A DNA stretch of 64,000 bases, taken from a bacterium (lineage in GTDB: Bacteria; Cyanobacteriota; Vampirovibrionia; Gastranaerophilales; Gastranaerophilaceae). Below the pieces are notes generated by a model. The model was not told where the DNA came from. It saw only the letters and a list, made by a program, of their open reading frames with translations, and ran no database searches. This document shows positions 21,307-42,327 of this stretch, in pieces. Made by a program: the position numbers and the translations under genes. The DNA is taken from positions 62,001 through 126,000 of the forward strand of contig JAFXYZ010000068.1 in NCBI GenBank assembly GCA_017541465.1. Direction: 5' to 3'. The stretch's first letter is position 1. The number at the start of each line of letters is the position of its first letter.

Positions 21307-21579
21307 CTAAAAATCATTGTCCTTACTTATCAGAAGTTTTTTGATATAGTCTATCCCCTCCTTTACTTCTTTTAAATCGTCAAGCGCCTGCTCCCTGAAG
21401 CTCAGGTAAGCAGGCAGAGTAACGTATAATTTAGGAAGCTCCTTAAACCTTTTTTCTATATCAAAAATAATTTCACGGTGTTTCTTTTCAAGTTGTTCGG
21501 GAGTAATAATGAGTTTTTGCTGAAACAGAAAAACCAGCACAACGATTATGACGGGAGCATATTCGATAAACGTATCCAT
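21307..21579 (-). CDS. Small membrane protein with coiled tail (phage lysis-type)
   Basis: A 90-aa protein with one N-terminal membrane helix (Y-A-P-V-I-I-V-V-L-V-F-L-F, residues ~7-20) and a charged helical remainder. In phages such a gene behind the fibre module is often a spanin- or holin-associated protein; that is inferred from position only. GGGGATAAAA precedes the ATG. It starts 3 bases after the stop of the 67-aa gene, so the two are coupled. Confidence 0.65.
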   Translation of the reverse strand: MDTFIEYAPVIIVVLVFLFQQKLIITPEQLEKKHREIIFDIEKRFKELPKLYVTLPAYLSFREQALDDLKEVKEGIDYIKKLLISKDNDF

Positions 21580-21581
21580 TT

Positions 21582-21785
21582 TTATCCCCTGAATACCTCT
21601 ATAATCAGATTTTTAAGGTTAATGTAAGTGTCCTTCAGCTCAGGCGCTTTCTTAATTAACCTTTCAAAATCATCTCTGATAGCACCGATGATTTCCTTCA
21701 TCTCTTCATCAATTCTTGAATTATCAAAGTATTTTTTGACTTTGTTGATAATTATAACAACCTTTAACCCCTTAAAAATGTTCAT
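21582..21785 (-). CDS. Small 67-aa phage-cluster protein
   Basis: A charged helical protein (R-I-D-E-E-M-K-E-I-I-G-A-I-R-D-D-F). An initial K-V-V-I-I-I-N-K-V stretch is too short to be a sure membrane segment. The AAAGGACAAGAAGA site supports the start. It lies between the fibre-associated gene and the 90-aa membrane gene. Function unknown. Confidence 0.6.
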   Translation of the reverse strand: MNIFKGLKVVIIINKVKKYFDNSRIDEEMKEIIGAIRDDFERLIKKAPELKDTYINLKNLIIEVFRG

Positions 21786-21805
21786 TCTTCTTGTCCTTTC
21801 TTTTT

Positions 21806-22423
21806 TTAATATTCAATCACAATTTCTTTTAACTCTTCATACGTCTGAGCCTCGGCGATTTGTTCTTTGTATGATAAATATTCTTCATTCCAAATATGCG
21901 CTTTAAACCCTGCAATTAAACCGCCCAAAGTTCCAAAGTCCTCAAGTGTTAATTCGACAACCTTATCATCTTTTGAGAGCCAGGAATAAGTTTCCATGCC
22001 CGTTGCCTGCATTAATAACATTGTCGCTGTTAAATCGCCTACTGTCTGCGCATTTGTTTCAAATTGTGCATCCTTAAACTCTACATAGCCCTTTTCAACC
22101 GCCATTTTTGCGCTTTTTGTGTTTTCATCATTCAGCTGATTTCTCAGAGCATTTATTCTGTCTGTGTCAAAGTCAGGATTTATAGTTCCATCCGTATAAT
22201 TAGCCGCATAACAGATATAATAATTCGGTTCGGCAATCAGGAGTTCAGCAACCTCTTCCTTAATTATTTCGGTATGATAGCCTATAATATTGCCATCCTC
22301 ATCATAATCAGGTACTTGAATTTCACGTTCTTCCTCGTGTACCCAAATATAGAGCCTTTTGCCCTCTCTGTTTGCTTCGACAGCTTTGTCGGCATAATCT
22401 TTATCCGTATATTTTTTAATCAT
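21806..22423 (-). CDS. DUF4376-type tail-fibre-associated protein
   Basis: A 205-aa soluble protein. The N-terminal part resembles phage fibre-assembly proteins (Y-D-E-D-G-N-I-I-G-Y). From ~95 the sequence A-L-R-N-Q-L-N-D-E-N, then T-V-G-D-L-T-A-T, Y-S-W-L-S-K-D-D-K-V-V-E-L-T and a final Y-K-E-Q-I-A-E-A-Q-T-Y-E-E-L-K match the DUF4376 pattern found next to tail fibres. It directly follows the fibre gene. AGAGGTTTTAA supports the start. A chaperone or accessory role in fibre assembly is inferred. Confidence 0.72.
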   Translation of the reverse strand: MIKKYTDKDYADKAVEANREGKRLYIWVHEEEREIQVPDYDEDGNIIGYHTEIIKEEVAELLIAEPNYYICYAANYTDGTINPDFDTDRINALRNQLNDENTKSAKMAVEKGYVEFKDAQFETNAQTVGDLTATMLLMQATGMETYSWLSKDDKVVELTLEDFGTLGGLIAGFKAHIWNEEYLSYKEQIAEAQTYEELKEIVIEY

Positions 22424-22497: not shown

Positions 22498-25164
22498 TTA
22501 ATATCCGATAGCAACCCAGTCAAAAGCCATAGTTACTGTATCTAAAGTTTTCTCAAATCTGTCCGTGTATTTATCTGCATAATAATATCCGCTTGCAATA
22601 CCGACTGACTGATTATAATTCGGGCGGATTAACAGGCAATAATTTGTATCAGAGAAAGGTTTTAGGAAACTGCAGGAATTATTTGCCGTTGAACCCTGCC
22701 CCCATTGAACAATCAGCCCGTCAGAGTAAACTTTATACCCGTCTGTACCGTTCAAATAGTTTTCTTTAACCACCGCAGGCTTATTGAGTGTTGCCGTTGA
22801 GTCCGTTGTAGGCTCGGTTACACACCAATCACCTATGACCTGTTTATCATCGGAAGCCTTTTGCATAAGCCCGTATATTTCGCCTGGGGGCAACATAGCT
22901 TTTTGATTTGCTTCATCTATCACATAATATATAGCTTTGCCGTTATAATCATAAACCGCCATAACCCTGTCGAGATATGCGCTGTCAACAACTTTTGTGC
23001 CGTATTTTTCCGCGCTTTCTGTGTAAGGAACGGCTAAACGAGCCATATAAACAACTTTCCCGCCTATCTTTATCGATATTGAGTTAAGGTCAACATCGCC
23101 GTTATAAGCCGTTCCGTCTATTGTCCAGCCTAAAATCTCATTTATGCTTGTGAACGGGGTTATTACCGTGCTTGTTTTTGTAGTCCAGTTTATTTTGTCG
23201 GTTGAATACGAAAAATAAACCGTATTACCTTCCACACCTACTTTTACATAGTATCTTGCGGAGGTTGATGTAATTATGTAATCAGTCCAAAATGTCCCAA
23301 AATGAGAGTTATAACTTGCTAAACCGAAACGACCGACACCATTACTTCCAGCCAAAATAAAGTTCATTGTCTTTGGTTTGTCTATACCGCCCAAAATTGC
23401 CCTGATGTTGTTTGTTATCGAACTCGGAGTTATAAAAGAAAAACTTATCTCAAAATCTTTGCCAGTTACATCGAGTTCTCCGCCTATTCCGATATAGTTT
23501 GCTCCCGAGAACCCACTCGCCATATAGTTTGAAGATATGGTCGGTGTACCTGTTACGGTATAATTATTCGGAATTATAGTGTCTGTCCCCGTCTTATTCC
23601 CCGAAAATACAGGGTAGCCGTCAACTGTCACAGAGAATTGTTTAAGGTCGATAGAACCTAAGAAATTACTATCATCCCATATTAAATTTCTTCCTAAGAC
23701 AATTTGAGAGTATAACAAACCAGTATAAGTTGCAGTTTTAGTGTCTAATAATGTATCGTTTTCTGAATATAGTTTAAATGTACTTGTTGTATTTGTTTGT
23801 GTAAACTCAACGGTATAAGTTGTATTTGCAGAAATATGAATAGAGTTTGCCTGATTCCACCCTGTGCCTGTACCTATTCTGTAATTAATTCCCCCATTAT
23901 TAATTGTGATACCTATACCTTTTTGTACATTCTCACCTATTCCCCTTATGGCTTGTCTTGTAGTAATATCGTTCCCTGTTGTGAATTTAATTTTTTCAGT
24001 ATAATTAACCACATTATCAGAATAAATATATGGTAGGGTTAAATAATTACTAAGAGTAAATCCACTCGCAACCCCGTCAGCCGTAATATTAGGACTGCCG
24101 ACTACGGTAAACTTTGTACTGTCAAAAGACGAATGTGCATATTTGTAGACATCATTGTATAAATGCACATCTGAGAGAAGTTCCGTTCTTTCATAGCCTA
24201 AATTTGCGTTTAATTGAGCAAAGGTAATCGCGGACTCATCTCTTGCCTGAAGGGCATAGTATTTTGCGCTGTATTCATTTCCGTCAACGGTTGAGCCCAT
24301 TTTATTCGCCCAGTCTTTTGCGAGATTTTCGGATGCAAGAGCATTGTTGGCACTTGTTAAAGCACTCTGTGCGTTTGTGTAGGCATTGTTGATGTCCGAA
24401 ATATTAGCTGCGCAGGTTGAAATATCAGTTGCGTTGTTCTTAACGGCAGTAATATCAGAGGAAATTCCTGCAACAGTCGTAATGTCAGAACTTATACCTG
24501 CGACAGTGTCAATGTTTGTTTTGTTTGAGTTTACCGCAGTAATATTTGTTTCATTGTCTGCAACGGCTGAAATATCAGAGGAAATTCCTGCGACAGCCGA
24601 AACATCGGAGGCAATACCCGAAACCGTGTTTATGTTTGTTTCGTTGGAATTTACGGCATTAATGTTTGAAATATTACTGTTAATATTAATCAGAGAAGGC
24701 AGATTTATCCCGATTTTATCGATATTATTAACAAGGCTCTCTGTGTCTATGGTCGGGCTTTCTTTTACCTTAATTGCCCTGTCGAGTTTTCGGCTCAGAA
24801 TCTGAATTAACCTCACGACATAGTCAAAAGTGCGCTCTATGACAGGCAGACTAAGTTTTATATCGGTCGGAAAACTGCTTTCCTGTTTAATATCCAAATC
24901 AAGCGCAAGTGTTAAGACTTCTGAAGAAGACAAAACGGAATAACCTGATGACGCAAGAGGAAAGGTAATATAGCTTCCCGAGGTATTCCCGGTTTCGTGA
25001 ACCGAATAGTCGAGATTTTCAACAAGTGTAACAATATTCCCGCCTGAATCAGTTTTTGTTACGACCAGTTCAGAGCCGTTTTCAATAAGAAAATCGAAGT
25101 CAAAAGTTGTAGTAGAGCCGTTTCCGAGGTAGTTATTTACAGGAACGACAGATGAAATTGTCAT
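22498..25164 (-). CDS. Tail fibre / receptor-binding protein
   Basis: An 888-aa fibre. The N-terminal ~150 residues match the T7 fibre base that binds the tail (N-N-Y-L-G-N-G-S-T-T-T-F-D-F-D-F). Residues ~155-270 hold repeated S-D-I-S-A-V / N-E-T-N-I-N-T-V units that likely form a trimeric shaft, followed by A-K-D-W-A-N-K-M. Two related lectin-like (LamG-type) domains occupy about 320-480 and 530-680 (N-Y-L-T-L-P, N-Y-I-G-I-G). The end (G-L-I-V-Q-W-G-Q-G, then M-A-F-D-W-V-A-I-G-Y) is the gp53-like tip of many fibres. The frame extends to 25311, but the ATG at 25164 with GGACCGGGAA is the real start. Confidence 0.88.
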   Translation of the reverse strand: MTISSVVPVNNYLGNGSTTTFDFDFLIENGSELVVTKTDSGGNIVTLVENLDYSVHETGNTSGSYITFPLASSGYSVLSSSEVLTLALDLDIKQESSFPTDIKLSLPVIERTFDYVVRLIQILSRKLDRAIKVKESPTIDTESLVNNIDKIGINLPSLININSNISNINAVNSNETNINTVSGIASDVSAVAGISSDISAVADNETNITAVNSNKTNIDTVAGISSDITTVAGISSDITAVKNNATDISTCAANISDINNAYTNAQSALTSANNALASENLAKDWANKMGSTVDGNEYSAKYYALQARDESAITFAQLNANLGYERTELLSDVHLYNDVYKYAHSSFDSTKFTVVGSPNITADGVASGFTLSNYLTLPYIYSDNVVNYTEKIKFTTGNDITTRQAIRGIGENVQKGIGITINNGGINYRIGTGTGWNQANSIHISANTTYTVEFTQTNTTSTFKLYSENDTLLDTKTATYTGLLYSQIVLGRNLIWDDSNFLGSIDLKQFSVTVDGYPVFSGNKTGTDTIIPNNYTVTGTPTISSNYMASGFSGANYIGIGGELDVTGKDFEISFSFITPSSITNNIRAILGGIDKPKTMNFILAGSNGVGRFGLASYNSHFGTFWTDYIITSTSARYYVKVGVEGNTVYFSYSTDKINWTTKTSTVITPFTSINEILGWTIDGTAYNGDVDLNSISIKIGGKVVYMARLAVPYTESAEKYGTKVVDSAYLDRVMAVYDYNGKAIYYVIDEANQKAMLPPGEIYGLMQKASDDKQVIGDWCVTEPTTDSTATLNKPAVVKENYLNGTDGYKVYSDGLIVQWGQGSTANNSCSFLKPFSDTNYCLLIRPNYNQSVGIASGYYYADKYTDRFEKTLDTVTMAFDWVAIGY

Positions 25165-25269
25165 AAAATTCCCGGTCCTTTCTTTATTTTTTGTTAAGAA
25201 TCTGATACAATATAGCAATATTTTGTTTTTATAAGTTTTGAGATGTTGTGATAAGTTGAAAGGTAAAAT

Positions 25270-25671
25270 ATGGAAGTAAGCGCAATTCAAAATTCCCCAA
25301 TGCAGCATCAAAAGCAGGTTAAGCGCAATAATATTCTGACCTCAGCCCTCAGCGGTGCAGGAATCGGCGCAGCTATCAACGGGTTTCAGAGTTTTTCACA
25401 ACAAAAACAACTGCTTAAAAACGGCGATGCCTTTATTAAAAATATGACGGAAGAAATCGCCCAGATTACAGAGCCCGAGCTGAAGCAACAGGCAGAAAAA
25501 GTTGCACAGGCAACAACAGATTTTATCAAGGCAGGCAAAATCAACCTTAAAGCCATCGGCATCAACGCACTCAAAGGCGCTTTGATGTTCGGTATCGTTT
25601 TTGCAGGTGTGGAAGTTATTTCTAACGCAATAAGAAACGCGAAAGCAAAGAAACAGGCAAAACAAGTATAA
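25270..25671 (+). CDS. Cargo gene: small protein with two hydrophobic segments
   Basis: A 133-aa product, opposite in strand to the phage genes and placed between the fibre and internal virion genes. It has a polar start, a glycine/alanine-rich hydrophobic segment (S-A-L-S-G-A-G-I-G-A-A-I, ~27-38), a helical middle and a C-terminal membrane-like segment (A-L-M-F-G-I-V-F-A-G-V-E-V-I, ~102-115) with a lysine-rich end. GAAAGGTAAAAT precedes the ATG. No family recognised; its style resembles host membrane proteins rather than virion proteins. Confidence 0.65.
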   Translation: MEVSAIQNSPMQHQKQVKRNNILTSALSGAGIGAAINGFQSFSQQKQLLKNGDAFIKNMTEEIAQITEPELKQQAEKVAQATTDFIKAGKINLKAIGINALKGALMFGIVFAGVEVISNAIRNAKAKKQAKQV

Positions 25672-25703: not shown

Positions 25704-27014
25704 CTACGAATTTCGCTTCTTTATCTGAGCCGTGACGCTCTCAATGAGCTGAGCGGCTTGGATTAAAGATATTTGTTTGTTGTTGTTCTTTTCCCATATA
25801 CTTTTTTCTCTGTTCAGTGTTTTAATCAGTAAAACATTGAAATTGTCGTCTTTTCCGAAATATTGTTTTATCAAATCGTATTCGTTTTTTAAATCGAGGT
25901 ATTTTTCAGGGGTTAAGTTGTTTTTTAACCCCGTAAAATAGTCAAAATCAAAACTGCTCAGGGTGTTTTTAAAGTTATAGAGATTTTCTTTTTCAAATTT
26001 TTCAAAATCTTCAAAGAGCATTTTGAATAATTCAAAGAATTTTTTGTTATCGGTCTCGGTTTTCCCCTGTTTTATCATTGTTTTTATATAGCTAATCTGA
26101 GAATTTATTGCCTTCTCGTCCTGGTTCAAATCGACCTCAAAGAGCGCTAAATCAGAGTTTTCCTTTAATAATTTGTCGATGTTTTCCCAGGTGGCGCGGG
26201 TTAACTCTGCGCGTTTTTCTTTTAAAAGGTTATCTTTTGAGTTTTTAAAGCCTTCAAAATAGAGCTTTGTGTACTTTTTGAGCTCTTCCCCTTTTATTTT
26301 TGAGAGCTTACTTTCGGCATCGTTATCGGTTAAGAGCTCCTTTGCCGTTTCAAACGCCTGAAGTTTGTTTCCGAGCTGGGATAAAACAGGTTCAATTTGG
26401 TTTCGTTTTTCTTCAAGGATATATTTTTTGTTTTTTTCATAAAAAGACAGGGCGGAAGCAGAGTTATCGTCAACAAAACTCCAGACCACCTCTTCAAAAA
26501 AATCGGAATTAAACTGAGTTATCAGATTATTTGTGCCTGATTTTGAAAGCCCTGTGAGTTCAGACTTAACCCCGAGCGCGGATAAGCCGTTCATATAGCA
26601 GGTTTCAAGCATATCAGGATAATTTTTGTATTCCTTCGCCTTTGTTTTTGAGTGCTCGATGGCGCTCTCAACGGTCTGAAGCTCCCAGCTTTTCTTTTCG
26701 CTCTCTTCAAAGCCGAGCATTTTGGATTGTATAGTGTTAATTTTGACTTTTATTATCTCTTCGGCTTTTCTGAGAGAGAACTGGGAATCAAAGACTGTTT
26801 CCGAGAGAATTTTTTCGGTATCACCTTTTAAAACCTGAAGCAGTTCTTTTGTTTTGCCCAGGACAGATTTACCTTTAAGAGAATAAAACCCGCCCGGGGA
26901 AAACAAAACACTTTGCTCCCAGTCGTCAATAAAATTAGATATTTCAAGTATTTTTGCGAGGTCAAAAACAGATGAGTGTTCGCCTTCAGCCTGTGATTTT
27001 ATGATATTTTCCAT
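25704..27014 (-). CDS. Probable internal virion (ejection) protein, 436 aa
   Basis: A long, almost wholly helical, charged protein with no membrane segment. It lies between the gp14-like gene and the tail fibre, the place of the large internal core proteins in T7-like phages. Those form the DNA-ejection channel, but this one is much shorter than T7 gp15/gp16 and I see no sequence motif to confirm it. AAAAGGAACGAACA precedes the ATG at 27014. The call rests on position and composition. Confidence 0.65.
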   Translation of the reverse strand: MENIIKSQAEGEHSSVFDLAKILEISNFIDDWEQSVLFSPGGFYSLKGKSVLGKTKELLQVLKGDTEKILSETVFDSQFSLRKAEEIIKVKINTIQSKMLGFEESEKKSWELQTVESAIEHSKTKAKEYKNYPDMLETCYMNGLSALGVKSELTGLSKSGTNNLITQFNSDFFEEVVWSFVDDNSASALSFYEKNKKYILEEKRNQIEPVLSQLGNKLQAFETAKELLTDNDAESKLSKIKGEELKKYTKLYFEGFKNSKDNLLKEKRAELTRATWENIDKLLKENSDLALFEVDLNQDEKAINSQISYIKTMIKQGKTETDNKKFFELFKMLFEDFEKFEKENLYNFKNTLSSFDFDYFTGLKNNLTPEKYLDLKNEYDLIKQYFGKDDNFNVLLIKTLNREKSIWEKNNNKQISLIQAAQLIESVTAQIKKRNS

Positions 27015-27026: not shown

Positions 27027-27566
27027 TTATAATACTATTTCACCATTCATTTTTTCTTCAAACTTCTTTGCGCCGTTAATCATTCCCTGCCCGAGAAGTG
27101 AAATAGCCATATTTTTCATATTATTTTTTGCGTTAGAGATATATAAATCAGCCCTGTCATCGTACATTTTGGCAGCGAGAAGTTGTTTTTGGGCATTTTC
27201 CTCTCCCTTTTTTAAGATATTCAGGGCATCGAGCTCACCCGAGAGCGAGACTGTGTCGATTAAATCGAGCGCCGTTCCCGAATTAAGGTCAATATTTCCC
27301 GAGGCTATGGAAGTTTTCAGAGAAGAAATACCCTGAAGGGTTTTAAGTCTTTGAAGTCTTGCTTCTTCAAGAGCCTCCTGACGTTCGAGCATAGCATTCT
27401 GCCTTGCTATTTCGGCATTCTGCTTTGCTGCGTTTGCATTTTCTTCAGCCTGAACATTCTGAACCTTAATCGTCTGCACGACTGAATAAATATTAAACAA
27501 ACCCTCAAAAAACGAGGAAAAGGTTGAAAAGGATGAAGATAGAGGTGTTGAATCTACAACGCACAT
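27027..27566 (-). CDS. Probable internal virion protein (gp14-like), 179 aa
   Basis: It begins with a short hydrophobic part (S-S-F-F-E-G-L-F-N-I-Y-S-V-V), then an alanine/glutamate/glutamine-rich coiled coil (A-A-K-Q-N-A-E-I-A-R-Q-N-A-M-L-E-R-Q), and later D-R-A-D-L-Y-I-S-N-A-K-N-N-M. This plan is typical of the small internal virion protein of short-tailed phages, which enters the host envelope at injection. AAGGAGTAAATC precedes the ATG. It sits 12 bases upstream of the 436-aa gene. Confidence 0.72.
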   Translation of the reverse strand: MCVVDSTPLSSSFSTFSSFFEGLFNIYSVVQTIKVQNVQAEENANAAKQNAEIARQNAMLERQEALEEARLQRLKTLQGISSLKTSIASGNIDLNSGTALDLIDTVSLSGELDALNILKKGEENAQKQLLAAKMYDDRADLYISNAKNNMKNMAISLLGQGMINGAKKFEEKMNGEIVL

Positions 27567-27678: not shown

Positions 27679-28032
27679 ATGATGATGTCGTCAATGAAAA
27701 AAGTTTTGATTTTAATGTTAATATTTTTCTTTTCAATGCCTGTTATGAGCATGCCTGTTTACTATCGTAGCGACGGAAAAATTATCAGCATTGGCGATAT
27801 GAGAGTAAATTATTCAAACGGGCGTATTAGTGATATTGGCGATTTACATGTTTACTATCGTAGCGACGGAAAAATTATCAGCATTGGCAATATGAGAGTA
27901 AATTATTCAAACGAGCGTATTAGTGATATTGGCGATTTGCATGTTTACTATCGTAGCGACGGAAAAATTATCAGCATTGGCAATATGAGAGTAAATTATT
28001 CAAACGGGCGTATTAGTGATATTGGCGATTAA
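27679..28032 (+). CDS. Cargo gene: secreted protein made of three 31-aa repeats
   Basis: A 117-aa product with a Sec signal (M-K-K-V-L-I-L-M-L-I-F-F-F-S), then three nearly identical 31-residue units encoded by 93-bp tandem DNA repeats starting at 27757, 27850 and 27943. Each unit has two similar halves (Y-Y-R-S-D-G-K-I-I-S-I-G and N-Y-S-N-G-R-I-S-D-I-G), suggesting a small beta solenoid. ATGs at 27679, 27682 and 27694 are all possible; there is no ribosome site, and a TATAAT lies just upstream. It sits against the phage direction. No family recognised. Confidence 0.72.
   Translation: MMMSSMKKVLILMLIFFFSMPVMSMPVYYRSDGKIISIGDMRVNYSNGRISDIGDLHVYYRSDGKIISIGNMRVNYSNERISDIGDLHVYYRSDGKIISIGNMRVNYSNGRISDIGD
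27757..28029 (+). repeat. Three 93-bp tandem repeats inside a gene
   Basis: The copies differ by very few bases (for example gggcg/gagcg and ttacatg/ttgcatg); the third stops two codons short of a full unit. The near identity implies recent expansion or gene conversion. Confidence 0.9.
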
Positions 28033-28226: not shown

Positions 28227-28234
28227 AATTGATT

Positions 28235-28750
28235 ATGAAACGAATTATTGTATTTTTTATTTTTCTATTATTATTTTTTGTTGCTTGTTTTATCCAAAAA
28301 TCTATTTATGATAACAAAATTCAGCTGCTCAATACTGAGTTAAACAATATCAAAGAAGAAAACAAGTTTATAAGTGATGTAAATAATAAAATATTAAACA
28401 ATACTAGCCCCATAGATAGAAATGAAAAAGAATGTTTAGAGAAAGCCGTTTCTACTTCTGAATCTTTAGAATGTATTAATAAATCATTAAAAGAATGGGA
28501 TAGTGAAATTGAAAAATACCTTGGTTTATTAAAACAATCAATGACAAATGAAGAATATAAACAAATTCAGACAAATCAGGATTTATGGATAACCCAAAAT
28601 AAAAGTAACAATGAAATCATAACCCAATTTGTTTTTAACCATGGCGGTACAATGTATTATCAAATTGCGTCTGATTATTATGTTCAGGACAAAAAACAAC
28701 GTGCTGAATTTTTAAAAGCCATTTATAACACATATAATAATGAATTGTAA
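28235..28750 (+). CDS. Cargo gene: LprI-like (DUF1311) anchored or secreted protein
   Basis: A 171-aa protein with a hydrophobic N-terminus (I-I-V-F-F-I-F-L-L-L-F-F-V-A-C, a signal or lipoprotein-like segment), a short coiled coil and a C-terminal domain. The domain has spaced cysteines (K-E-C-L-E-K ... L-E-C-I-N-K), L-K-E-W-D-S-E-I-E-K-Y-L and Q-D-L-W-I-T-Q-N-K, which match the lysozyme-inhibitor LprI N-terminal family. Such proteins can protect peptidoglycan from lysozyme, a notable trait beside a virion lysozyme gene. An in-frame TTG at 28229 is rejected because the promoter abuts the ATG at 28235. Confidence 0.72.
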   Translation: MKRIIVFFIFLLLFFVACFIQKSIYDNKIQLLNTELNNIKEENKFISDVNNKILNNTSPIDRNEKECLEKAVSTSESLECINKSLKEWDSEIEKYLGLLKQSMTNEEYKQIQTNQDLWITQNKSNNEIITQFVFNHGGTMYYQIASDYYVQDKKQRAEFLKAIYNTYNNEL

Positions 28751-28820: not shown

Positions 28821-28850
28821 TTGACCAAAAAATATTCAATAATTTATAAT
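28821..28850 (+). promoter_or_regulatory. Strong promoter directly abutting the start codon at 28857
   Basis: TTGACC, 18 bp, perfect TATAAT at 28845-28850. The ATG follows after 6 bases, so transcription should start at the ATG itself. Confidence 0.65.
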
Positions 28851-28856
28851 ATTCTT

Positions 28857-29213
28857 ATGAAAAAGCTTTTTATTATTTGTTTATTTTTAATTTTTGCTAA
28901 TTTTCAAATGTGTTTAGGAAATTCCATATACAATTATGCAGACACAATGTCATTTGACGAATATTTAAATATAAAAAAATCACGTAAAGATTGGAAAACT
29001 CTTAAATTAAACGAAAATGGCGATGTTATCTTTAAAAATAGAATCATATTAACTAGCAACGGACTACCATTAAATGAAAATACCGCATATACAACTACTG
29101 AATTAAAAATTTTATTTGGTGCGCAAGGTATAAAGCCAAGAAAGGGCTGCAATCCTAAAAACATTAAAAAAAATGGTACTTTAGGATGCTATATTGATAA
29201 TCCTGATGAATAA
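28857..29213 (+). CDS. Cargo gene: small secreted protein, 118 aa
   Basis: It has a clear Sec signal (K-K-L-F-I-I-C-L-F-L-I-F-A-N-F) and a mature part of about 95 residues with two cysteines (K-G-C-N-P, L-G-C-Y-I-D) that could form a disulfide. An in-frame TTG at 28821 is part of the -35 box, so the ATG at 28857 is the start; it has no ribosome site and is probably leaderless. It is the last of three plus-strand genes lying between two internal virion genes. Family not recognised. Confidence 0.68.
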   Translation: MKKLFIICLFLIFANFQMCLGNSIYNYADTMSFDEYLNIKKSRKDWKTLKLNENGDVIFKNRIILTSNGLPLNENTAYTTTELKILFGAQGIKPRKGCNPKNIKKNGTLGCYIDNPDE

Positions 29214-30527: not shown

Positions 30528-30992
30528 TCACCCCGAAATTTTATAGAAAAATTCAAAGCCTTCGGGCACTTCTATTCCGTTCGGGCGGGGGGTATCAAAT
30601 CTGAAGCCCAGCATTTTGAGCCATTTTTTGGCGCTATGGTTTGTTTTATAGATGAAATTATAGAGAATTAAATATTCCTTTTCTGCCTTATTTATCTCTT
30701 CTGAGAGGTTTTTAATCAGAGAAAGTTTGTGATATTTAACCTCCTCGGTTGAAAGAAGCCAGACACAAGCTATCCCCGAATTTTTACCGCCGACACCCCA
30801 GACTCCGCCCATAACAACGGGGTTATCACTCACACCAAGAAGGACATAAAAATCGGTATTCATAATATTTTTGAGGGTTTCATCTCTCCACTCTTCACCC
30901 CAGAGCGCTTTTAATTCTTCTAAATCTTCACTTCTGAGATGAGAGAGAATGTATTCAACATCCTTCAGATTTTTTTGTTTTTTTCTTAGCAT
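30528..30992 (-). CDS. GNAT-like phage protein (T7 gp13-type)
   Basis: A 154-aa protein with the look of a GNAT acetyltransferase: an early helix pair, strands (F-Y-V-L-L-G-V-S-D-N-P-V-V-M-G-G-V-W-G-V), A-C-V-W-L-L-S-T-E, then N-F-I-Y-K-T-N-H-S-A-K-K-W-L-K-M-L-G-F-R at the end. Such proteins lie at this site in T7- and BPP-1-like phages (gp13 family) and may aid virion assembly rather than acetylate. It is 35 bases upstream of the lysozyme-bearing gene. Confidence 0.8.
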   Translation of the reverse strand: MLRKKQKNLKDVEYILSHLRSEDLEELKALWGEEWRDETLKNIMNTDFYVLLGVSDNPVVMGGVWGVGGKNSGIACVWLLSTEEVKYHKLSLIKNLSEEINKAEKEYLILYNFIYKTNHSAKKWLKMLGFRFDTPRPNGIEVPEGFEFFYKISG

Positions 30993-34454: not shown

Positions 34455-35045
34455 CTATCTTAACTCCATCCACTTATTATCCTCTTTTGTCTCAAGAAAC
34501 CCTTCCTGAGCATTTAAAACCTTTGCGCGCTTTAAAATGGCATTGTAAACACTAAGGCAGTCATTCTGAAGCGCTCTGTTTGCGCTGATTGAGGGCGCAG
34601 CAAGAAACGCAAGATACCACGACAGCGCCATGGCAAACTCAACAGGGAAAAAGTTTTCATTCGTGATAACCTTTGTATATCTGAGTATTGCAGGCGAAAC
34701 ATTCGTGGTTATTACCTTCTGGAAGGTCGGAGTTGCAGAAACCTCAAACTCGATTATCCTCTCAGAATACCCGTCAATCAGCTCTCTTGCGAACAAACAA
34801 TCGTTAGGATAGTCATATTCATAGAGAAAATGAGGGTTTTGAGGAACATTCCCCGTAGGTGTCAATTCTCTGTATGCATTGGCAAAATTCCAGTCAAAGT
34901 CCTTCAGCACTTCATCTCTTGCGCTTTCATAATATTCGTTCAGAATGACGGTGTTTCTGTCCGTCTGCTGTGCACTCTGAAGGCTCTGGCTTATCCTTAA
35001 ATTCTTCAGTGCAATATTAAAAATCTTGGCTTTTGTATAGTTCAT
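34455..35045 (-). CDS. Tail tube / adaptor protein (T7 gp11-like)
   Basis: A 196-aa protein. It starts K-A-K-I-F-N-I-A-L-K-N-L-R-I-S-Q and continues with Y-Y-E-S-A-R-D-E-V-L-K-D-F-D-W-N-F-A, the standard motif of the gp11/tubular A family that forms the ring under the portal. The Y-E-Y-D-Y-P-N-D-C-L strand and C-terminal A-M-A-L-S-W-Y-L-A-F are also typical. AAAGGTCAGAACAG precedes the ATG. Confidence 0.9.
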   Translation of the reverse strand: MNYTKAKIFNIALKNLRISQSLQSAQQTDRNTVILNEYYESARDEVLKDFDWNFANAYRELTPTGNVPQNPHFLYEYDYPNDCLFARELIDGYSERIIEFEVSATPTFQKVITTNVSPAILRYTKVITNENFFPVEFAMALSWYLAFLAAPSISANRALQNDCLSVYNAILKRAKVLNAQEGFLETKEDNKWMELR

Positions 35046-35125: not shown

Positions 35126-35518
35126 CTACGCATGATGCTCCTGGTGTCCTGCGACAATACCGGCAAGAATTTTGCCGGTTGTCGGCGCAGTACCTGTCAC
35201 ATCATAATATAATCTGACAAACCCTAAGTTGCCTTTAGGGAGGAAAATCAAAGAAGATTGCGCCCCTTTCGTGAGGTTTGCCAAAAGTATTGTCTGCGAT
35301 GCCAGGGTTACGGGAGTTGTAAAAGCGGCATCAGTTGCCGTCTGCACCTTGATTTCAAGTGAAGTAAGGTTATTAAATGCTTCCGTTACCTGAATAAAAA
35401 TCGGTATGGGAGTTGCACTCGCAAACTCACCTGAACCTAATTCAACAATGTTTGTTGAAGCAGCATCGGCTGTAACAGCCTGGTTATTTGAAAATAGTGC
35501 CTGTTCATCTAATATCAT
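35126..35518 (-). CDS. Capsid decoration/cement protein (Bbp16-like)
   Basis: A 130-aa beta-rich protein starting M-I-L-D-E-Q-A-L-F-S-N-N-Q-A-V-T, then A-A-S-T-N-I-V-E-L-G, with L-P-K-G-N-L-G-F-V-R-L-Y-Y-D-V near the end. This matches the cement protein of BPP-1-type phages, which binds the capsid surface. A TTG two codons earlier is in frame; AAAGGAAAATTGAAA places the start at the ATG at 35518. It directly follows the capsid gene. Confidence 0.82.
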   Translation of the reverse strand: MILDEQALFSNNQAVTADAASTNIVELGSGEFASATPIPIFIQVTEAFNNLTSLEIKVQTATDAAFTTPVTLASQTILLANLTKGAQSSLIFLPKGNLGFVRLYYDVTGTAPTTGKILAGIVAGHQEHHA

Positions 35519-35533
35519 TTTCAATTTTCCTTT

Positions 35534-36529
35534 CTATGAAACCTGAGCTTCCGTATTGAGAATTTGGTCACATTCTCTTATAGGAATGTTTTTATAGTGA
35601 AGTACATTCTCATTCAGATACTCTTTTACCGTAAAGTTGACATTGTTCTTTGCTCTGATTTGGGCTTCAAAATACATCAGCGCGGTAGAGTTGCAGTAAA
35701 TAACCGTTCTGCCTGTTTTTGAATAACGTTTAATTCTGTAGTATGCCTGGTTCATAAGGCTTTCAATATCGGCAGCGGAAACACCCGCAAGGTCAGAAAC
35801 ATCTATATTCGCAATTCTGCAGGTAGAGCGCCAGTCACGGACAGACAAGCCGACATCCATTTTATAGTGGTCCTGATAAACCTTTCTCTTTCCGCCTGCG
35901 GAGTCTGTTTCAGTCATAACACCGTCATCTCTGTGCTGAACACCTGCCTGAGAGCCCTGAGGATAGATTAAAGAGGTATGCTGGTCGCCCCAGGTAACAA
36001 ACCAGATAGAAGTGTTATCTGTTCCGGAACCGCCCGCATCGATAATGTTATAACCGATTTTCTTGTCATCATTTGATTTTTTGCCGTATCTGACCGCTAA
36101 ACCGTCAAAGGCAGCCGCGTTGTCCTTAATACTTCCATAAAAAATGGTGTCCTGAAGCTTCTGGTTCATCGCCTCAATAAATGCCGAGGACTCTGACAGT
36201 CTGAAGAGCTTAGGGTTTTCAGCCTTATCCACCAAATCAACATCAACAATGGAATAGGTTTCAAGCATACCCGTTACATCTTTAACCTGTGTGGTAACAG
36301 ATTTTGAAGGGGGCACAAAGCCATAGAGCTTTCTGAAGGTTGCACTCGGAAGCCCGCTTCTGATAGTTGTGATGTGGTTAGTTCCGTCATTGCACTGAAG
36401 AGCATTCGCGTCCTGCAAAAGCTCGTTTGTTTCCGACATCATTTCGATAATTTCTGCGGCAGTTTTACCATTTTCGGTACGTTTAAAGGAATCTGCCAAA
36501 TTTAAGTAAGTAGAGCCTAAAGTAGCCAT
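35534..36529 (-). CDS. Major capsid protein
   Basis: A 331-aa HK97-fold capsid protein of short-tailed phages. Markers are the N-terminal A-E-I-I-E-M-M-S-E-T-N-E-L-L-Q-D, T-I-R-S-G-L-P-S-A-T-F-R-K-L-Y-G, an insertion with F-D-G-L-A-V-R-Y and W-F-V-T-W-G-D, and D-W-R-S-T-C-R-I-A-N. AAAGGAGAATTTA is one of the strongest ribosome sites in the cluster, as expected for the most abundant product. It sits between scaffold and cement genes. Confidence 0.92.
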   Translation of the reverse strand: MATLGSTYLNLADSFKRTENGKTAAEIIEMMSETNELLQDANALQCNDGTNHITTIRSGLPSATFRKLYGFVPPSKSVTTQVKDVTGMLETYSIVDVDLVDKAENPKLFRLSESSAFIEAMNQKLQDTIFYGSIKDNAAAFDGLAVRYGKKSNDDKKIGYNIIDAGGSGTDNTSIWFVTWGDQHTSLIYPQGSQAGVQHRDDGVMTETDSAGGKRKVYQDHYKMDVGLSVRDWRSTCRIANIDVSDLAGVSAADIESLMNQAYYRIKRYSKTGRTVIYCNSTALMYFEAQIRAKNNVNFTVKEYLNENVLHYKNIPIRECDQILNTEAQVS

Positions 36530-36551: not shown

Positions 36552-37112
36552 TTATTGCATACTCGGGAAAAGAATATCTTCCCTTGCCTCTCTGACAGGC
36601 TGTGCAAAGGCTGAAGGACGGATTTTATCAGAGTCCATCTGCCTGCCGATTTCAAGAAACATTTTGACGATTTTGGGGTGATAGTTAAGCCCTGAGCGTG
36701 AAAGCAGGGTTTGTACCTCATCATCGGCAAATTTCTCATAGGCAATATTTGCAACCTTCAGAGAAGAATCGAGATTTTTTCCGCCGATTTCTTTATCGTT
36801 TCTGAGCATTTCTTTATAGCTTTCGATTTGACTCTGGGTAGTTGTGCTGAGCGCCTTCGCAAAATTATCTCGCGTCTGCTTTGTCAGTCTGACGGCCATT
36901 GTCATAAGCTCATTTGCCCCTTTTTGCGATAAATCGTATTTCGCGGCAAGTTCGTTAAAATCCTTGAGTAAATTTTCATCGTATTCCATATCAGCGCCAA
37001 GCTCTATGTCTTTGTAGTCGTAGGCTTCAGGGCGACCGAAATAGCCCCCGTCTTTCGGCAATTCAGCTTCATTTGGCTGCTGAGCGGAGATTGGTTGTTG
37101 TTCTTCTTCCAT
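36552..37112 (-). CDS. Capsid scaffold protein
   Basis: A 186-aa acidic, helical protein between portal and capsid genes. It starts with E/Q-rich sequence, then Y-D-L-S-Q-K-G-A-N-E-L-M-T-M-A, T-R-D-N-F-A-K-A-L and E-M-L-R-N-D-K-E-I-G-G-K-N-L-D. The K-E-I-G-G and K-M-F-L-E-I-G-R-Q-M motifs are usual in phage scaffold/assembly proteins. GAAAGGATTTTTT precedes the ATG. It should guide procapsid formation and then leave. Confidence 0.82.
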   Translation of the reverse strand: MEEEQQPISAQQPNEAELPKDGGYFGRPEAYDYKDIELGADMEYDENLLKDFNELAAKYDLSQKGANELMTMAVRLTKQTRDNFAKALSTTTQSQIESYKEMLRNDKEIGGKNLDSSLKVANIAYEKFADDEVQTLLSRSGLNYHPKIVKMFLEIGRQMDSDKIRPSAFAQPVREAREDILFPSMQ

Positions 37113-37128: not shown

Positions 37129-38781
37129 TTAACTTATTCCTAGTCTTTGCAGGAGTTCGGCACCGTAGGCATCCGAGCCTGCTATGTTTTTTATTATTTC
37201 AGAGCCTTTTTTAATTTCTTCTATCTGCTCTGCTCTTTGGGTTTCCTCCTTCTGAGCCTGCTTTAATCTCTCAAGTTCTGTGTCTGAGATTAACTGCTCG
37301 GGCGAAATATTTGCGAAATCGGCATAATCGTCTATTATCTTTGAAGCATTGAGCTTCATCGAAAGCGATTTATCAAGTGTCTGGGCAAGGTTAATCGTGA
37401 AGGTGGTAAATCTCTCCATAGCGGAAATTTTGACCGCCTTTTGCGCCTGCGCCAGGGTAGAAACGAACTCAATTTCGAGATTTCTGCCTTTTATTGCCTC
37501 GGGAGGTTCGGGCAGGACAGAATTTTTCATACATTCAGCGAAGAGCCAGCCTATAATCCGGTTCAGTCCGTTGTGTATCTGCTCTAAAAGTGGCGAGAGA
37601 AGTACCATCTTTTCTTCCTTGAGCTCGTTTACCTCGGTCGCCGTTCTTGAACGTTCGGCAGTGTTTAAAATCATTGCAAATAAATCGTTATAAAATATCT
37701 CTTTTATTGAACTTTTGAGCTTTTCAATAATAGAATCGACTTCTAAAACACGAGGATTAACTTCATAAATAGGACTTAACCCGCGCCCATTCTCGTCCTC
37801 CTCGATGAAAGCAGCAGGAGCATCAATCATTTTCTTGTTTTTTAAGCTGGCAGGTCCTTTATAAGTCGGACTTATCATCTTTTTGACCGCTTTAGCTTCA
37901 TCAATGACCATGCTCATAAGCTGCTTAACATCGGGAAGGGCATTAATCCCGGGGCAATCAGAGGGATAGACATCTTCCCCGTTGACTTCGGCTTCAAAAA
38001 CGGCATAGGGGAATTTATCAAAACCGCTTGCCGAAAGAAATTTTCCGTCTTTTGAGTTTTGCTCATAATAAACGGAAATAAACTTTTTGTCCTTTGCCCA
38101 GGGGGAAGACGGGTTATAATCTTTATTCGGTTCAACGAAGTGGACTATTTCAAACATTTCTTCAAATCTGTTTGAAGCTATCGCCTGCTTTATATCGTCA
38201 GAGACATTTTCCTGCCCGAAGGTATTATAAATATTCTTCGCGCTGTCCATATACACTCTTGCTATGGTATCAACAGTGCCTTTTTCATCTTTTGCAATTC
38301 TGTATGAGCCGACAGGAAGGAGGTAGCAGCGAAAAACAGAGTTTTCGTCAGGCGAAAGTGCGACAACGGAAATTCCGAAAACCCCGATTTGCTTATAGAC
38401 AGAGGGTAAAATGCGGTAGAGATTTGAGGAATTAAAAATATCCCTCATAATCTTTTCCACTTTTGCGCACCAGGTACGGACTGTAAAGGAGGGTTCATGT
38501 TCAAAACTTCTGACTTTAACCTTAAACCAGTTTGTCGCAGGGCTTGTAGCTCCCGACATCATGCCGGAGGAAAAATTCCTGAGAGCGATAAGCGGAGTTG
38601 AATCCTTAATCTTTTTATTTTTTGCAGGAGCTTTGTTGACGTTCCTTGCAAGAAATCTCACACTTCTCGGGAGGAAATAATCCGCCAGATCCTGCCAGTC
38701 GGGTTTTATAGCAAGGTAGGCATCCTCGAGTTCAGCAAGACGGGCGTTAAAATACTGTTTTGTATAAGAAGATTTTTCCAT
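37129..38781 (-). CDS. Portal / head-to-tail connector protein
   Basis: A 550-aa portal of the short-tailed phage type. Early W-Q-D-L-A-D-Y-F-L-P-R-S, then L-R-N-F-S-S-G-M-M-S-G-A-T-S-P-A-T-N-W-F and the long helical stem with E-R-S-R-T-A-T-E-V-N-E are characteristic. A coiled, glutamate-rich end follows (E-E-T-Q-R-A-E-Q-I-E). It forms the dodecameric DNA entry ring. The frame reaches 38826, but GGAGAATAACGGC places the start at the ATG at 38781, 4 bases after the preceding stop. Confidence 0.93.
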   Translation of the reverse strand: MEKSSYTKQYFNARLAELEDAYLAIKPDWQDLADYFLPRSVRFLARNVNKAPAKNKKIKDSTPLIALRNFSSGMMSGATSPATNWFKVKVRSFEHEPSFTVRTWCAKVEKIMRDIFNSSNLYRILPSVYKQIGVFGISVVALSPDENSVFRCYLLPVGSYRIAKDEKGTVDTIARVYMDSAKNIYNTFGQENVSDDIKQAIASNRFEEMFEIVHFVEPNKDYNPSSPWAKDKKFISVYYEQNSKDGKFLSASGFDKFPYAVFEAEVNGEDVYPSDCPGINALPDVKQLMSMVIDEAKAVKKMISPTYKGPASLKNKKMIDAPAAFIEEDENGRGLSPIYEVNPRVLEVDSIIEKLKSSIKEIFYNDLFAMILNTAERSRTATEVNELKEEKMVLLSPLLEQIHNGLNRIIGWLFAECMKNSVLPEPPEAIKGRNLEIEFVSTLAQAQKAVKISAMERFTTFTINLAQTLDKSLSMKLNASKIIDDYADFANISPEQLISDTELERLKQAQKEETQRAEQIEEIKKGSEIIKNIAGSDAYGAELLQRLGIS

Positions 38782-38785
38782 GCCG

Positions 38786-38989
38786 TTATTCTCCAAGAAG
38801 TTTCTTTTTCTCGGAGGATGGTTCATCCGTCAATCCCAGAGCGGATGTCCTGGTATTTTCAGATACAATTCCGCCAAGATTTCTTCTGATGTCTTTTGAA
38901 CCTTTTGTTGCATTTGCGTTCGCCTGAACCGCATTTTTAATAACTTCGGAAGAGGTCGTAATCGTTGTTACTTTTGGTGTTGAGCACAT
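38786..38989 (-). CDS. Small conserved virion-module protein, 67 aa
   Basis: It begins M-C-S-T-P-K-V and ends A-L-G-L-T-D-E-P-S-S-E-K-K-K-L-L-G-E. The pattern of an M-C start, a central charged helix, then G-L and K-K-x-L-L-G resembles small genes found next to portals in many short-tailed phages. Function unknown. AAAGGAAACATT places the start at the ATG at 38989; a longer frame to 39049 adds a phenylalanine-rich stretch that is not real. Confidence 0.72.
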   Translation of the reverse strand: MCSTPKVTTITTSSEVIKNAVQANANATKGSKDIRRNLGGIVSENTRTSALGLTDEPSSEKKKLLGE

Positions 38990-39373: not shown

Positions 39374-40351
39374 ATGTTTGTAAACCCTGTAAGATTAGAG
39401 AGCAAAGCTACCCCAAGTATGAAAAGAAGTTATAAGGGCTACAGAGAAATAAACGAGCCCCTTGTTGATAATACCCGTAAACTCTCAAAAGTATTAGTTG
39501 CGCTGGGAGTTATAATGACCGCAGGTATCGGCATCGGTATGGCAGCAACAAAACGAAATGCAAAACAGGCTGAAAAAATAATAGTTCAGGCAGGAAATGA
39601 TATTTCAGACGTTGCCTCATCATCTAAAACCGCGGCAAAAGCCATAGAAGTCGTTCAGGAGGTTACCGAAAACCTCCAGAATAAAGTTTCGGGAACAATT
39701 CAGGAGGTTGCCGAAGATACTCAAAACAAGGTTGCAGTCAAAGTAACAGAAACCGTTGACGTCAAACCCGAAAAAATTCAGGATACTCTTGAAGATGCCT
39801 TTGAAGAATTTCAAAAGAGTATAAATGAAACCTCCCAAAATGCAACAGAGAAAACTAAAAAAGCCTCTGCAGACCTTTTTGAAGATTTTGAATTTACAAT
39901 AGAAAAAAAGTCTGATGACAGAGCAGTTCGGGAAATAAGAGAAAGAATGTCAAACGAGTTCAGTGAAAAAGTAGCTCAGGCGACAGACGAATATCAATAC
40001 AGGATAAACAACGGTCTCAGGCTCTCTGACAGAGTTAAAGCCCTTAAAGACAGCGGTGCTGAGAGGGAAGCAAATATTGCGGTTTCAAAAATGAGAAGCC
40101 TTCAGCTTAATACCCTTTCAAATAATCAGATAAATGCGCTAAGCGATGAAACTCTTGAGCATCTTTTATTCAGTCCTGCCCACGCAAAAGGGAAATTAAG
40201 GAACATGAAATTCCTGAAATCACTTACCCCCGAACAATTAATAAGGATACAGACGGACAAACACAGATTATATGCGCTTTATGAAGTTATCGAAAGTGAT
40301 ACGAAAGGATATGGTCTTGACTGTATGATTAATTCGCTGAGAAACTTTTAA
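39374..40351 (+). CDS. Cargo gene: membrane-anchored coiled-coil protein, 325 aa
   Basis: It has one hydrophobic segment at ~39-57 (S-K-V-L-V-A-L-G-V-I-M-T-A-G-I-G-I-G), then ~120 residues of Lys/Glu/Ala/Thr helical repeats (V-T-E-N-L-Q-N-K-V, V-A-E-D-T-Q-N-K-V) resembling apolipoprotein-like coils. A more globular end follows with L-S-N-N-Q-I-N-A-L-S and L-T-P-E-Q-L-I-R-I-Q. It lies opposite to the phage genes, filling the gap between terminase and the small virion gene; its stop directly abuts the terminase stop. GAAAGGA lies 14 bases upstream of the ATG. Family not recognised. Confidence 0.7.
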   Translation: MFVNPVRLESKATPSMKRSYKGYREINEPLVDNTRKLSKVLVALGVIMTAGIGIGMAATKRNAKQAEKIIVQAGNDISDVASSSKTAAKAIEVVQEVTENLQNKVSGTIQEVAEDTQNKVAVKVTETVDVKPEKIQDTLEDAFEEFQKSINETSQNATEKTKKASADLFEDFEFTIEKKSDDRAVREIRERMSNEFSEKVAQATDEYQYRINNGLRLSDRVKALKDSGAEREANIAVSKMRSLQLNTLSNNQINALSDETLEHLLFSPAHAKGKLRNMKFLKSLTPEQLIRIQTDKHRLYALYEVIESDTKGYGLDCMINSLRNF

Positions 40352-41665
40352 TCAGCCGTAAGGATCAAAATCGCTCTCTAAAAAGACCGTTCCTTCGCTT
40401 TCGCGGTAAATGAGATAGGAATAATAGTTTATTGCGTAAATACCCATCATCAGACTGTCCGCAAAATCGGGACTTTCGCCATGCTCTGATTTTATATCCC
40501 TTTTCGCTTCAATAAAGATTTTCCCGTCAGGTCTGTAGGTCTTTTTGAGGTATTCGAGCTGGCTTATGACTTCCGTGGAAGTAATTTTGAGCCAGCCGTT
40601 ATCAATATATTCCTTTAAGGTCATATACCCGTCAGCTCTTTGGTTTGTTGCGTTTTCCCGTTTGCTCTGCCCTGCTCCATTGAACTTTATGGCATTTTTT
40701 ATTATGTTTTTTATACTCACATAAATAGGATAGCCGAGCCCGTCAGCATCTAAAATCAGGAGTTCGGGCTTGATTTCAGAGTACATCGAAATGATTTTTC
40801 CCTTTGTTATATCGGTATCGGGTTCGGACCAGCCGACCTGTTTTGTTAATTCCCAGGCATTTTCGCCTCTTGCTTCAATAACGGAGGCAACGCACAAATC
40901 ACCGCCTGCACCCGCCAAATCAACCGATAAACAGGAAATTTCCCTGTGGTTTGATAGCGGAAAAACGAGTTTTTGGGCTTTATCGAGTTTAGAAGAAGAA
41001 AACAAAAATTCGCTTGAGGACTCTTTGGGGTTTCCTTCCCAGATGTGTTCATAATCCCCGGGGCTTCTTAATTTGCATCTTCTAGCCTCATCAATAAGCT
41101 TCTCGGGGCAGTGTTTATTGTCATAATAGTTGATTTTAATATGAAGGCAGTCATCTCTTGTTATGAACTCAGAATAAACGGCATCCTTTCTGACAAACCT
41201 GTTCATAGAAAAGAGCACTATCGAATTTTTTCTTCTTATGGTCGGAATAATGACATCAAGCGTTGACTTGGTAATCGCCTGCGCTTCATCTATCCAGAGA
41301 ACGTCAATTCCTTCAAGCCCCTTAATATTAACCTTGCCCTGCTCACGAAAGCCTTTAAAGATAATATCAGAGCCTGTTATATTATGGTAAATTTTCGTTG
41401 ACATAACCGTAAAATTGAGGGAATATTCCTCAATCAAATCAACAAAAATTTTATAGACACTGTCAGAGATAGTCATCTGAATTTCGCGCCCGCAGCAGAT
41501 ATGCACCTTCCTCTGTTCTGCGAGCCAAAGTAAAATCCTTGCTATACTTTGTGATTTGCCACCACCTCTTCCCCCTTCAATTAAAAAATAGTTATAATCA
41601 TTGATATTTTTGATAACACTAAGCATTTTTAAGGGTAAATCAAGTATTTCAGGCAGTTCAATCAT
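40352..41665 (-). CDS. Terminase large subunit
   Basis: The 437-aa DNA-packaging motor. Walker A is G-G-R-G-G-G-K-S at 31-38; V-L-W-I-D-E-A-Q (D-E at 126-127) is Walker B plus catalytic Glu; S-M-N-R-F is the coupling motif. The nuclease half has S-V-D-L-A-G-A-G-G-D (D249), L-L-I-L-D-A-D-G-L-G and P-D-F-A-D-S-L-M as metal ligands. All key residues are present, so the motor may still work. It resembles the Terminase_3/PBSX type. It starts 4 bases after the 96-aa gene. Confidence 0.93.
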   Translation of the reverse strand: MIELPEILDLPLKMLSVIKNINDYNYFLIEGGRGGGKSQSIARILLWLAEQRKVHICCGREIQMTISDSVYKIFVDLIEEYSLNFTVMSTKIYHNITGSDIIFKGFREQGKVNIKGLEGIDVLWIDEAQAITKSTLDVIIPTIRRKNSIVLFSMNRFVRKDAVYSEFITRDDCLHIKINYYDNKHCPEKLIDEARRCKLRSPGDYEHIWEGNPKESSSEFLFSSSKLDKAQKLVFPLSNHREISCLSVDLAGAGGDLCVASVIEARGENAWELTKQVGWSEPDTDITKGKIISMYSEIKPELLILDADGLGYPIYVSIKNIIKNAIKFNGAGQSKRENATNQRADGYMTLKEYIDNGWLKITSTEVISQLEYLKKTYRPDGKIFIEAKRDIKSEHGESPDFADSLMMGIYAINYYSYLIYRESEGTVFLESDFDPYG

Positions 41666-41669
41666 AGTC

Positions 41670-41960
41670 TCACTCAGAATTATTAACGTCCTCTCCGACC
41701 TTCGGCTTTATTGTCGTGCCGTCAATTTTAACCGCACCCATTTTGTTTAGTGTTGTTTTCCCTTCCGTTTTATCGGAATACAAACCGCAGAGTTTTCCTT
41801 TAAGTTCCTCCGCCTTGAGAAAAACGGAAATATCGGGGTTGAGCTCGTCATCCTTTCCTTTTCTGTTCAGCGCAAGCTCCTGCACAGTTTCAAGATTATC
41901 AAAAGAATCCTGCTTGGAATATTTGACCGTATTATCACTTTTTTTCTTTTTACGAGGCAT
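41670..41960 (-). CDS. Small gene upstream of terminase (possible small terminase subunit)
   Basis: A 96-aa charged protein with a very basic start (M-P-R-K-K-K-K-S). Its place just upstream of the large terminase subunit is where the small, DNA-recognising subunit usually lies. I see no helix-turn-helix, so this is inferred from position alone. It overlaps the upstream gene by 11 bases. Confidence 0.6.
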   Translation of the reverse strand: MPRKKKKSDNTVKYSKQDSFDNLETVQELALNRKGKDDELNPDISVFLKAEELKGKLCGLYSDKTEGKTTLNKMGAVKIDGTTIKPKVGEDVNNSE

Positions 41961-42327
41961 TCTGAATAACCTTAACTAACTTTTTTACTCCGTTAAAATC
42001 AACCGCAAACTGTTTTATATTGCCGCTCTTGTCCTGTTCGTTTACACCGTAGATGAAGGAAGAGTTGCTCTTTGTTCCGAATTTAATTATTTCCTCTTCT
42101 CTCCACTCCCCGTTTTCAATCGAATTGATAAACTGAAAAGTCTTTTTCCGCTTTGGACGTATTCTCTCAAACTCCTGTTTTATAAGAGAATACTGGGTTA
42201 ATTCCGCAACAAGCGAATTACAGTTCGGACAAATCAAAATTTCAAGTTTCCTGTCTGTATAATTAAAACTATCCGCAGGAATAATCACCCTCGATGGCGT
42301 ATGATACGCACCACAGCAATAAATCAC
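41950..42327 (-). CDS. First gene of the phage cluster, cysteine-containing, 125 aa
   Basis: It has C-C near the start and C-P-N-C at ~33-36, which could bind zinc, then a helical and a beta-rich part (N-S-S-F-I-Y-G-V, K-Q-F-A-V-D-F-N-G-V-K-K). The start is GTG at 42327 with a strong GGGGGAGAG site. It overlaps the next gene, so it belongs to the terminase operon. Function unknown. Confidence 0.65.
   Translation of the reverse strand: MIYCCGAYHTPSRVIIPADSFNYTDRKLEILICPNCNSLVAELTQYSLIKQEFERIRPKRKKTFQFINSIENGEWREEEIIKFGTKSNSSFIYGVNEQDKSGNIKQFAVDFNGVKKLVKVIQNAS

Follow-up and report, generated by a model that had tools for sequence, protein, structure and literature searches.

A Domesticated Short-Tailed Phage Cluster in Gut Gastranaerophilaceae as a Probable Gene Transfer Agent

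The Virion Gene Cluster

The window analyzed here is a stretch of 64,000 nucleotides (assembly GCA_017541465.1, contig JAFXYZ010000068.1, positions 62,001 to 126,000) from a member of the Gastranaerophilaceae, and it lies in a genome that is 99.7% complete (G000:C33). At positions 21307–42327 of the window an intact, epsilon15/phiV10-like cluster for a short-tailed virion is present, lysis genes included. This cluster is almost certainly a domesticated, vertically inherited element of the family. In the following, the genera compared are labeled g1 (the genus of the window, with one genome), g21 (its sister genus) and g18 (a distant genus).

Read on the minus strand from 42327 to 21307, the first half of the cluster encodes a Cys-motif protein, the small terminase (TerS), the large terminase (TerL), a small protein, the portal, a protease/scaffold protein, the major capsid protein (MCP) and a Bbp16-like head protein. 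The second half continues with tail proteins A and B, a gp13-like internal protein, a lysozyme, an internal virion protein, a lysin-like virion protein, the fibre, a fibre-associated protein and a putative holin (Table 1). Within TerL the Walker A and B motifs as well as three nuclease motifs are intact.

Table 1. Features of the virion cluster and of the genes inserted into it (window positions).
Feature	Position	Strand	Evidence
Small Cys-motif protein, 125 aa, upstream of TerS	41950..42327	-	Homologues cluster in GTA loci and prophages; common to related phages
Small terminase TerS, 96 aa, N-terminal DNA-binding domain deleted	41670..41960	-	Aligns with C-terminal part of 155–173 aa phage TerS
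Large terminase TerL, 437 aa	40352..41665	-	Terminase_3 1.5e-25; ATPase and nuclease motifs intact
Host-type gene, unknown function, between terL and portal	39374..40351	+	No homologue in other loci compared
Small conserved virion-cluster protein, 87 aa	38786..39049	-	Cluster c11; homologues in 25/32 loci
Portal / head-to-tail connector	37129..38826	-	Head-tail_con PF12236 1.4e-117; solved portal 8ck0, E 1.8e-94
Scaffold/protease-like protein	36552..37112	-	phrog_458 1.8e-32
MCP, GP7 family	35534..36529	-	PF20911 1.1e-119; solved capsids 8cjz, 3j4u, 3j40
Bbp16-like head protein	35126..35524	-	PF21190 5.5e-13
Tail protein A	34455..35045	-	phrog_394 3.4e-36
Inserted host-type secreted protein	33896..34453	+	No family match; absent from other loci compared
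Tail protein B	31722..33785	-	phrog_376 2.2e-189
Inserted host-type small protein	31099..31476	+	ORF; no family match
Internal virion protein, T7 gp13-like	30528..30992	-	PF11090 2.2e-6; phrog_308 2.9e-28
Phage lysozyme, long N-terminal extension, probable endolysin	29224..30492	-	PF00959 1.8e-38
Inserted small secreted protein	28821..29213	+	ORF
LprI-type lysozyme inhibitor adjoining lysozyme	28229..28750	+	PF07007 7.6e-9
Inserted repeat protein, three 93-bp repeats	27679..28032	+	Repeat search; ORF
Internal virion protein	27027..27566	-	phrog_418 2e-14
Shortened virion protein, without C-terminal part	25704..27014	-	phrog_10475/1044; alignment with 700–747 aa phage forms
Inserted host-type small protein	25270..25671	+	ORF
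Tail fibre, fast-evolving	22498..25311	-	phrog_13893 N-terminus; PF21882 (gp53-like) C-terminus
DUF4376/tail-fibre-associated protein	21806..22423	-	PF14301 5e-5; phrog_3811
Small transmembrane protein, putative holin	21307..21579	-	Transmembrane inference; G135 homologue at same place; no family match

A preliminary description of this DNA had stated that every structural frame is open. This is correct, as all structural open reading frames (ORFs) in the ORF list of the window are intact. The cluster is, however, not one uninterrupted operon, since five plus-strand stretches missed at that time (25270–25671, 27679–29213, 31099–31476, 33896–34453, and 39374–40351) split the minus-strand structural genes. 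These consist of small host-type genes, and no structural gene is disrupted by any of them. Within the small plus-strand repeat gene, positions 27752–28030 form three near-perfect tandem repeats of 93 bp. In g21, the interval between terL and portal is an insertion hot spot (genomes G124 and G291; loci L055-L056 and L109-L110), which takes up to ~10 kb of variable genes together with small repeated Cys-rich peptides, the GTA genes not being lost.

Absence of Phage Modules and Distribution

On one side the cluster is flanked by pheT, htpX, lemA, a helicase-nuclease gene, pcnB, relA, nadD, and udk, and on the other side by a DSHCT helicase gene, GGGtGRT, smpB, and pilC-pilB-pilQ, several of these names having been read from the sequence and not from a family search. 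Neither in the cluster nor in these flanks was an integrase, a repressor or a replication gene found, and a repeat search revealed no direct (att) repeats bracketing the cluster; here, the preliminary description, which had placed no integration or replication module just outside, is confirmed. Two tRNA-Gln genes are located 2 kb from the cluster and were considered as its insertion site, for which they are a poor fit because their 3′ ends point away from it. An early replication-type gene and a giant polyvalent protein are both absent from the window's genome, and the prophage-type early gene has no match there nor in most of the other genomes with a gene transfer agent (GTA)-like locus. Compared with a uetakevirus-like temperate phage, the virion genes are found in the same order, and integrase, repressor, replication genes and a full-length TerS are missing.

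The MCP was found in 52 of 286 genomes of the order Gastranaerophilales, all within one family. It is present in 41/41 species of g21, 28/28 of g18 and 1/1 of g1, and open in all but one; TerL is present in 40 of the 41 g21 genomes. In the window's genome the capsid gene is single-copy. Binning contamination was rejected as an explanation, because host operons are present on the same contigs as the loci. The element is not limited to one strain and its structural genes are intact in nearly all relatives, as expected from the domestication that had been proposed. In other genera the capsid gene is rare and sporadic and, except in genome G135, is part of prophages that have an early module and also encode a polyvalent protein of 2.4–3.0 kaa. 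One g21 genome (G254:C36, 2136–2855) contains a prophage-type early gene and no second phage capsid match, probably representing a fragmented prophage.

Loss of the DNA-Binding Domain of TerS

TerS has a length of 155–173 aa in all 13 related phage-type loci, and a Terminase_2 domain is found at the N-terminus of the four phage-type proteins tested, this family matching the phage forms and not the short forms. In the GTA-like loci, TerS is devoid of this N-terminal DNA-binding domain with the remainder kept, which holds for 30/30 loci of g1 and g21 and for 20/20 loci of g18 with a readable gene. The missing segment corresponds to about residues 9–63 of the phage protein. For the phage L167, TerS matches the DNA-binding domain structures of the SF6 terminase (2cmp, 4zc3) on the level of sequence and fold. 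AlphaFold models, of low overall confidence (pTM 0.43–0.44) and used solely for the presence of four N-terminal helices, display these helices in the phage form and none of them in the window form. A frameshift or a mis-called start as the cause of the shortening was rejected, since in the window numerous stops interrupt the frame upstream, and the neighboring gene overlaps the start of TerS.

The absence of the N-terminal domain has been proposed as a defining trait of GTA-type TerS (PMC6854486, PMC11841831). Judged from the sequences, the sequence-specific DNA-binding domain is gone from TerS, and the rest has remained under purifying selection.

Vertical Inheritance and Selection

In g21 the locus occupies one site. 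Here, rlmH-FAD-gcvT are located beyond TerS in 23 of the 24 informative loci and lysC-kdsC-rpsP on the fibre side in 18 of 19. All g18 loci seen have a uniform gene order, which includes one host-type gene fixed among the virion genes in reverse orientation. Congruence was examined with a tree of six virion proteins against the host PheT tree. The Mantel r is 0.867 for g1 and g21 together and 0.602 for g18, with 0 of 2000 permutations as high in each case, and the trees have 10/19 and 4/15 splits in common (chance 0.25 and 0.23, respectively). The mean distances of the virion proteins amount to 0.94 (g1 and g21) and 1.02 (g18) of the PheT distances. Universality, the fixed site in g21 and the congruence with PheT bear out the vertical inheritance that the preliminary description had anticipated. 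Near-identical complete prophages, on the other hand, occur in hosts of two different genera (G001:C14 and G160:C4); this shows that the sister phages move between genera, which the GTA-like elements do not.

This bears on the possibility that the element is satellite-like or one half of a bipartite system, its late module depending for mobilization or replication on early genes at another locus or on a helper prophage in the same cell. The related complete prophages in some g21 genomes would fit to it. The fixed chromosomal site and the host-congruent tree do not, nor does the absence of any match to the early gene from the window's genome and most GTA genomes; furthermore, TerS has lost the domain needed for packaging-site recognition. 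A satellite is therefore very unlikely.

The median dN/dS is 0.026 for the MCP, 0.027 for the portal, 0.032 for terL, and 0.057 for terS, and for the tail fibre it is about 0.36 in relatives. For terminase, portal and capsid, values below 1 had been predicted, and those found (0.026–0.032) are far below. The catalytic motifs of TerL are kept in 51/51 GTA-like loci, which indicates that packaging itself is still selected. This argues against a domesticated capsid with a role other than DNA transport, such as storage or protein delivery. Such a capsid would presumably tolerate the loss of TerS specificity as well, but the conserved motifs and a dN/dS of 0.03 in TerL imply that the packaging of DNA is maintained, which makes this explanation highly improbable.

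A structural remnant, or an ordinary prophage in slow decay, would account for the missing early genes and for the stops in MCP and TerL of one g21 genome. That 70/70 species of three genera have the element, almost always with open genes, that dN/dS is 0.03 and that rates are host-like is hard to reconcile with decay, and the truncated TerS is itself under purifying selection. For g21 and g18 as wholes decay is already contradicted, and overall it has next to no probability. Thus both alternatives that the preliminary description had kept, decay and a satellite replicated in trans, are disfavored, the former by its 70/70 species and low dN/dS, the latter by vertical inheritance at a fixed site.

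Two Origins From One Phage Family

In the phylogeny the elements of g1 and g21 group with the phages G179b, L165, L167, and G135, and those of g18 group with other phages (G001, G085, G138, and others). A single origin of all GTA-like loci is rejected, the one-clade constraint having a lnL lower by 546 (AU p = 2.3e-5), so domestication happened twice. The host tree agrees with this, as it joins g18 with g25 at a distance from g1 and g21. The common ancestor of g1 and g21 captured a temperate phage of the epsilon15/phiV10 type, which was reduced to the genes for head, tail, packaging and lysis, and the g18 lineage went through the same reduction independently.

Both lineages lost the early module, the giant polyvalent protein, the C-terminal portion of a ~700-aa virion protein and the DNA-binding domain of TerS. 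The lost part of the virion protein carries an M23 peptidase in phage G179b (1.1e-25). An example of the polyvalent protein is found in L092 (1850–10639), comprising 2929 aa with an ART-PolyVal ADP-ribosyltransferase domain and LPD1. The locus of G135 from g25 (L085, G135:C29; contig of 16 kb) is devoid of the giant protein and of the peptidase part, and its TerS is full-length. It may represent an intermediate, and a third domestication is possible as well. Taken together, it is reasonably likely that the same losses turned one short-tailed phage family into a functional GTA on at least two occasions in non-photosynthetic gut Cyanobacteriota, and that living sister phages and the possible intermediate G135 reveal the single steps of this change.

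Proposed Function

Four traits of GTAs, the last of them a proposed hallmark, come together in the element: its structural and packaging genes are complete with replication and integration genes missing, it is inherited vertically, its structural genes are under purifying selection, and its TerS has no N-terminal domain. The GTA-like nature suggested in the preliminary description is strongly supported by inheritance, selection and the truncated TerS, and the element probably works as a GTA. Mechanistically, the host would induce the cluster in some cells, in which capsids assemble. TerS-TerL, freed from the phage packaging site, would start on any chromosomal DNA and fill the heads with host DNA. 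Cell lysis would be achieved by an endolysin together with the holin-like protein, the endolysin being a lysozyme in the window, GH108 in g21 and an M15 peptidase in g18. The fast-evolving fibre would select recipients among related strains, and these may take in the DNA through ComEC/DprA. Both proteins are present in all genera tested, including genera without the element, and are uninformative as support.

In the window an LprI-type lysozyme inhibitor is encoded beside the lysozyme, and in G124 (locus L056, 9558–10193) three tandem copies of such an inhibitor are located between portal and terL, near a GH108 gene. Possibly these inhibitors next to the lysins of the cluster form a lysis brake or an immunity pair; as a brake, the LprI-type protein would perhaps restrain lysis.

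PBSX is a domesticated phage that packages random host DNA and kills with a contractile tail. By analogy, the capsids described here might package random host DNA, the selected role being to kill or deter competitors. Such a particle, too, would be expected to be inherited vertically, to be under purifying selection and to have lost its packaging specificity, and a fast-evolving fibre would suit the selection of targets. Here, however, the particle is short-tailed, and the virion peptidase domain as well as the giant polyvalent protein have been lost, which would weaken contact killing. A PBSX-like killing particle is for these reasons rather unlikely. PBSX resembles the element in being a domesticated phage and differs in its contractile tail and bacteriocin function.

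Several observations weigh against a functional, domesticated GTA. The element is known here from its genes. In the window species the plus-strand insertions break the operon, and coordinated expression there needs internal promoters. The cluster of the window and the g21 loci are both near the pilC-pilB-pilQ/kdsC region, but on opposite sides, so their positions differ. The search for a separated early module was performed with two genes only. One g21 genome, G302 (C13, C82), is the only one of its genus with stops in both MCP and TerL, either by decay or by assembly error, and in g25 one of two genomes (G135) carries the element, the other having no capsid gene. Finally, prophages of the same family co-occur in a few g21 genomes (G179, G240, G296), and some of them could supply functions in trans there.

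Relation to Known Systems

Within the Uetakevirus phages phiV10 and epsilon15 and in Bordetella phage BPP-1, the order TerS-TerL-portal-protease-MCP-Bbp16-tail-tail-internal virion proteins-fibre is essentially that of the window, and the MCP of phiV10 is about 48% identical to that of the window. In contrast, these phages are temperate and complete; their TerS is a full-length PF03592 protein, and they encode further large virion proteins as well as early genes. The Gastranaerophilaceae prophages (G001, G179b, G138, and others) have homologous late genes with an MCP 45–72% identical to that of the window; they differ by a full TerS, the long virion protein, the polyvalent protein of 2.4–3.0 kaa and a patchy distribution. 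An integrase and a repressor were identified in G001, and RecT in G179b.

GTAs are known from few lineages, and the route from phage to GTA had to be inferred from distant relatives. RcGTA (Rhodogtaviriformidae) likewise is a head-tail cluster with vertical descent, purifying selection and a TerS without N-terminal DNA-binding domain. It is, however, siphovirus-like, belongs to Alphaproteobacteria, has demonstrated functions and is of unrelated origin. The preliminary description had taken known GTAs to be mostly siphovirus-like and a short-tailed one in this lineage to be new; short-tailed GTAs as such have a precedent, since a podovirus-like GTA-like element has been published for Faecalibacterium (PMC12946183). 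This FpGTA of Faecalibacterium prausnitzii (2026) packages random host DNA, its particles have been seen, and it is present in all Faecalibacterium genomes examined there (PMC12946183). Both are podovirus-like structural operons of gut bacteria with lysis genes and a TerS without obvious DNA-binding domain (PMC12946183), FpGTA being likened by its description. FpGTA is found in Bacillota and consists of two separate operons, whereas the element described here belongs to the epsilon15/phiV10 lineage, occupies a single locus and has a predicted activity. In the literature searched, with subscription papers and preprints outside its coverage, no GTA is described for Gastranaerophilales or Melainabacteria. 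Compared to FpGTA, the phylum, the phage lineage and the two parallel domestications with living phage sisters are new.

These two independent domestications can be set beside closely related phages that are still intact, and TerS lost the same domain in either case. This parallel loss represents a natural test of the idea that losing the DNA binding of TerS is the key step. Furthermore, all examined species of three animal-gut genera of Gastranaerophilaceae probably carry a gene-sharing particle.

Virus-finding pipelines file this host locus as phage, which bears on the reading of gut viromes, and IMG/VR holds such contigs. Six of these (L158–L163) fall within the GTA clade of g21 where placed in the tree, L160 being identical there to the locus L126 of a metagenome-assembled genome.

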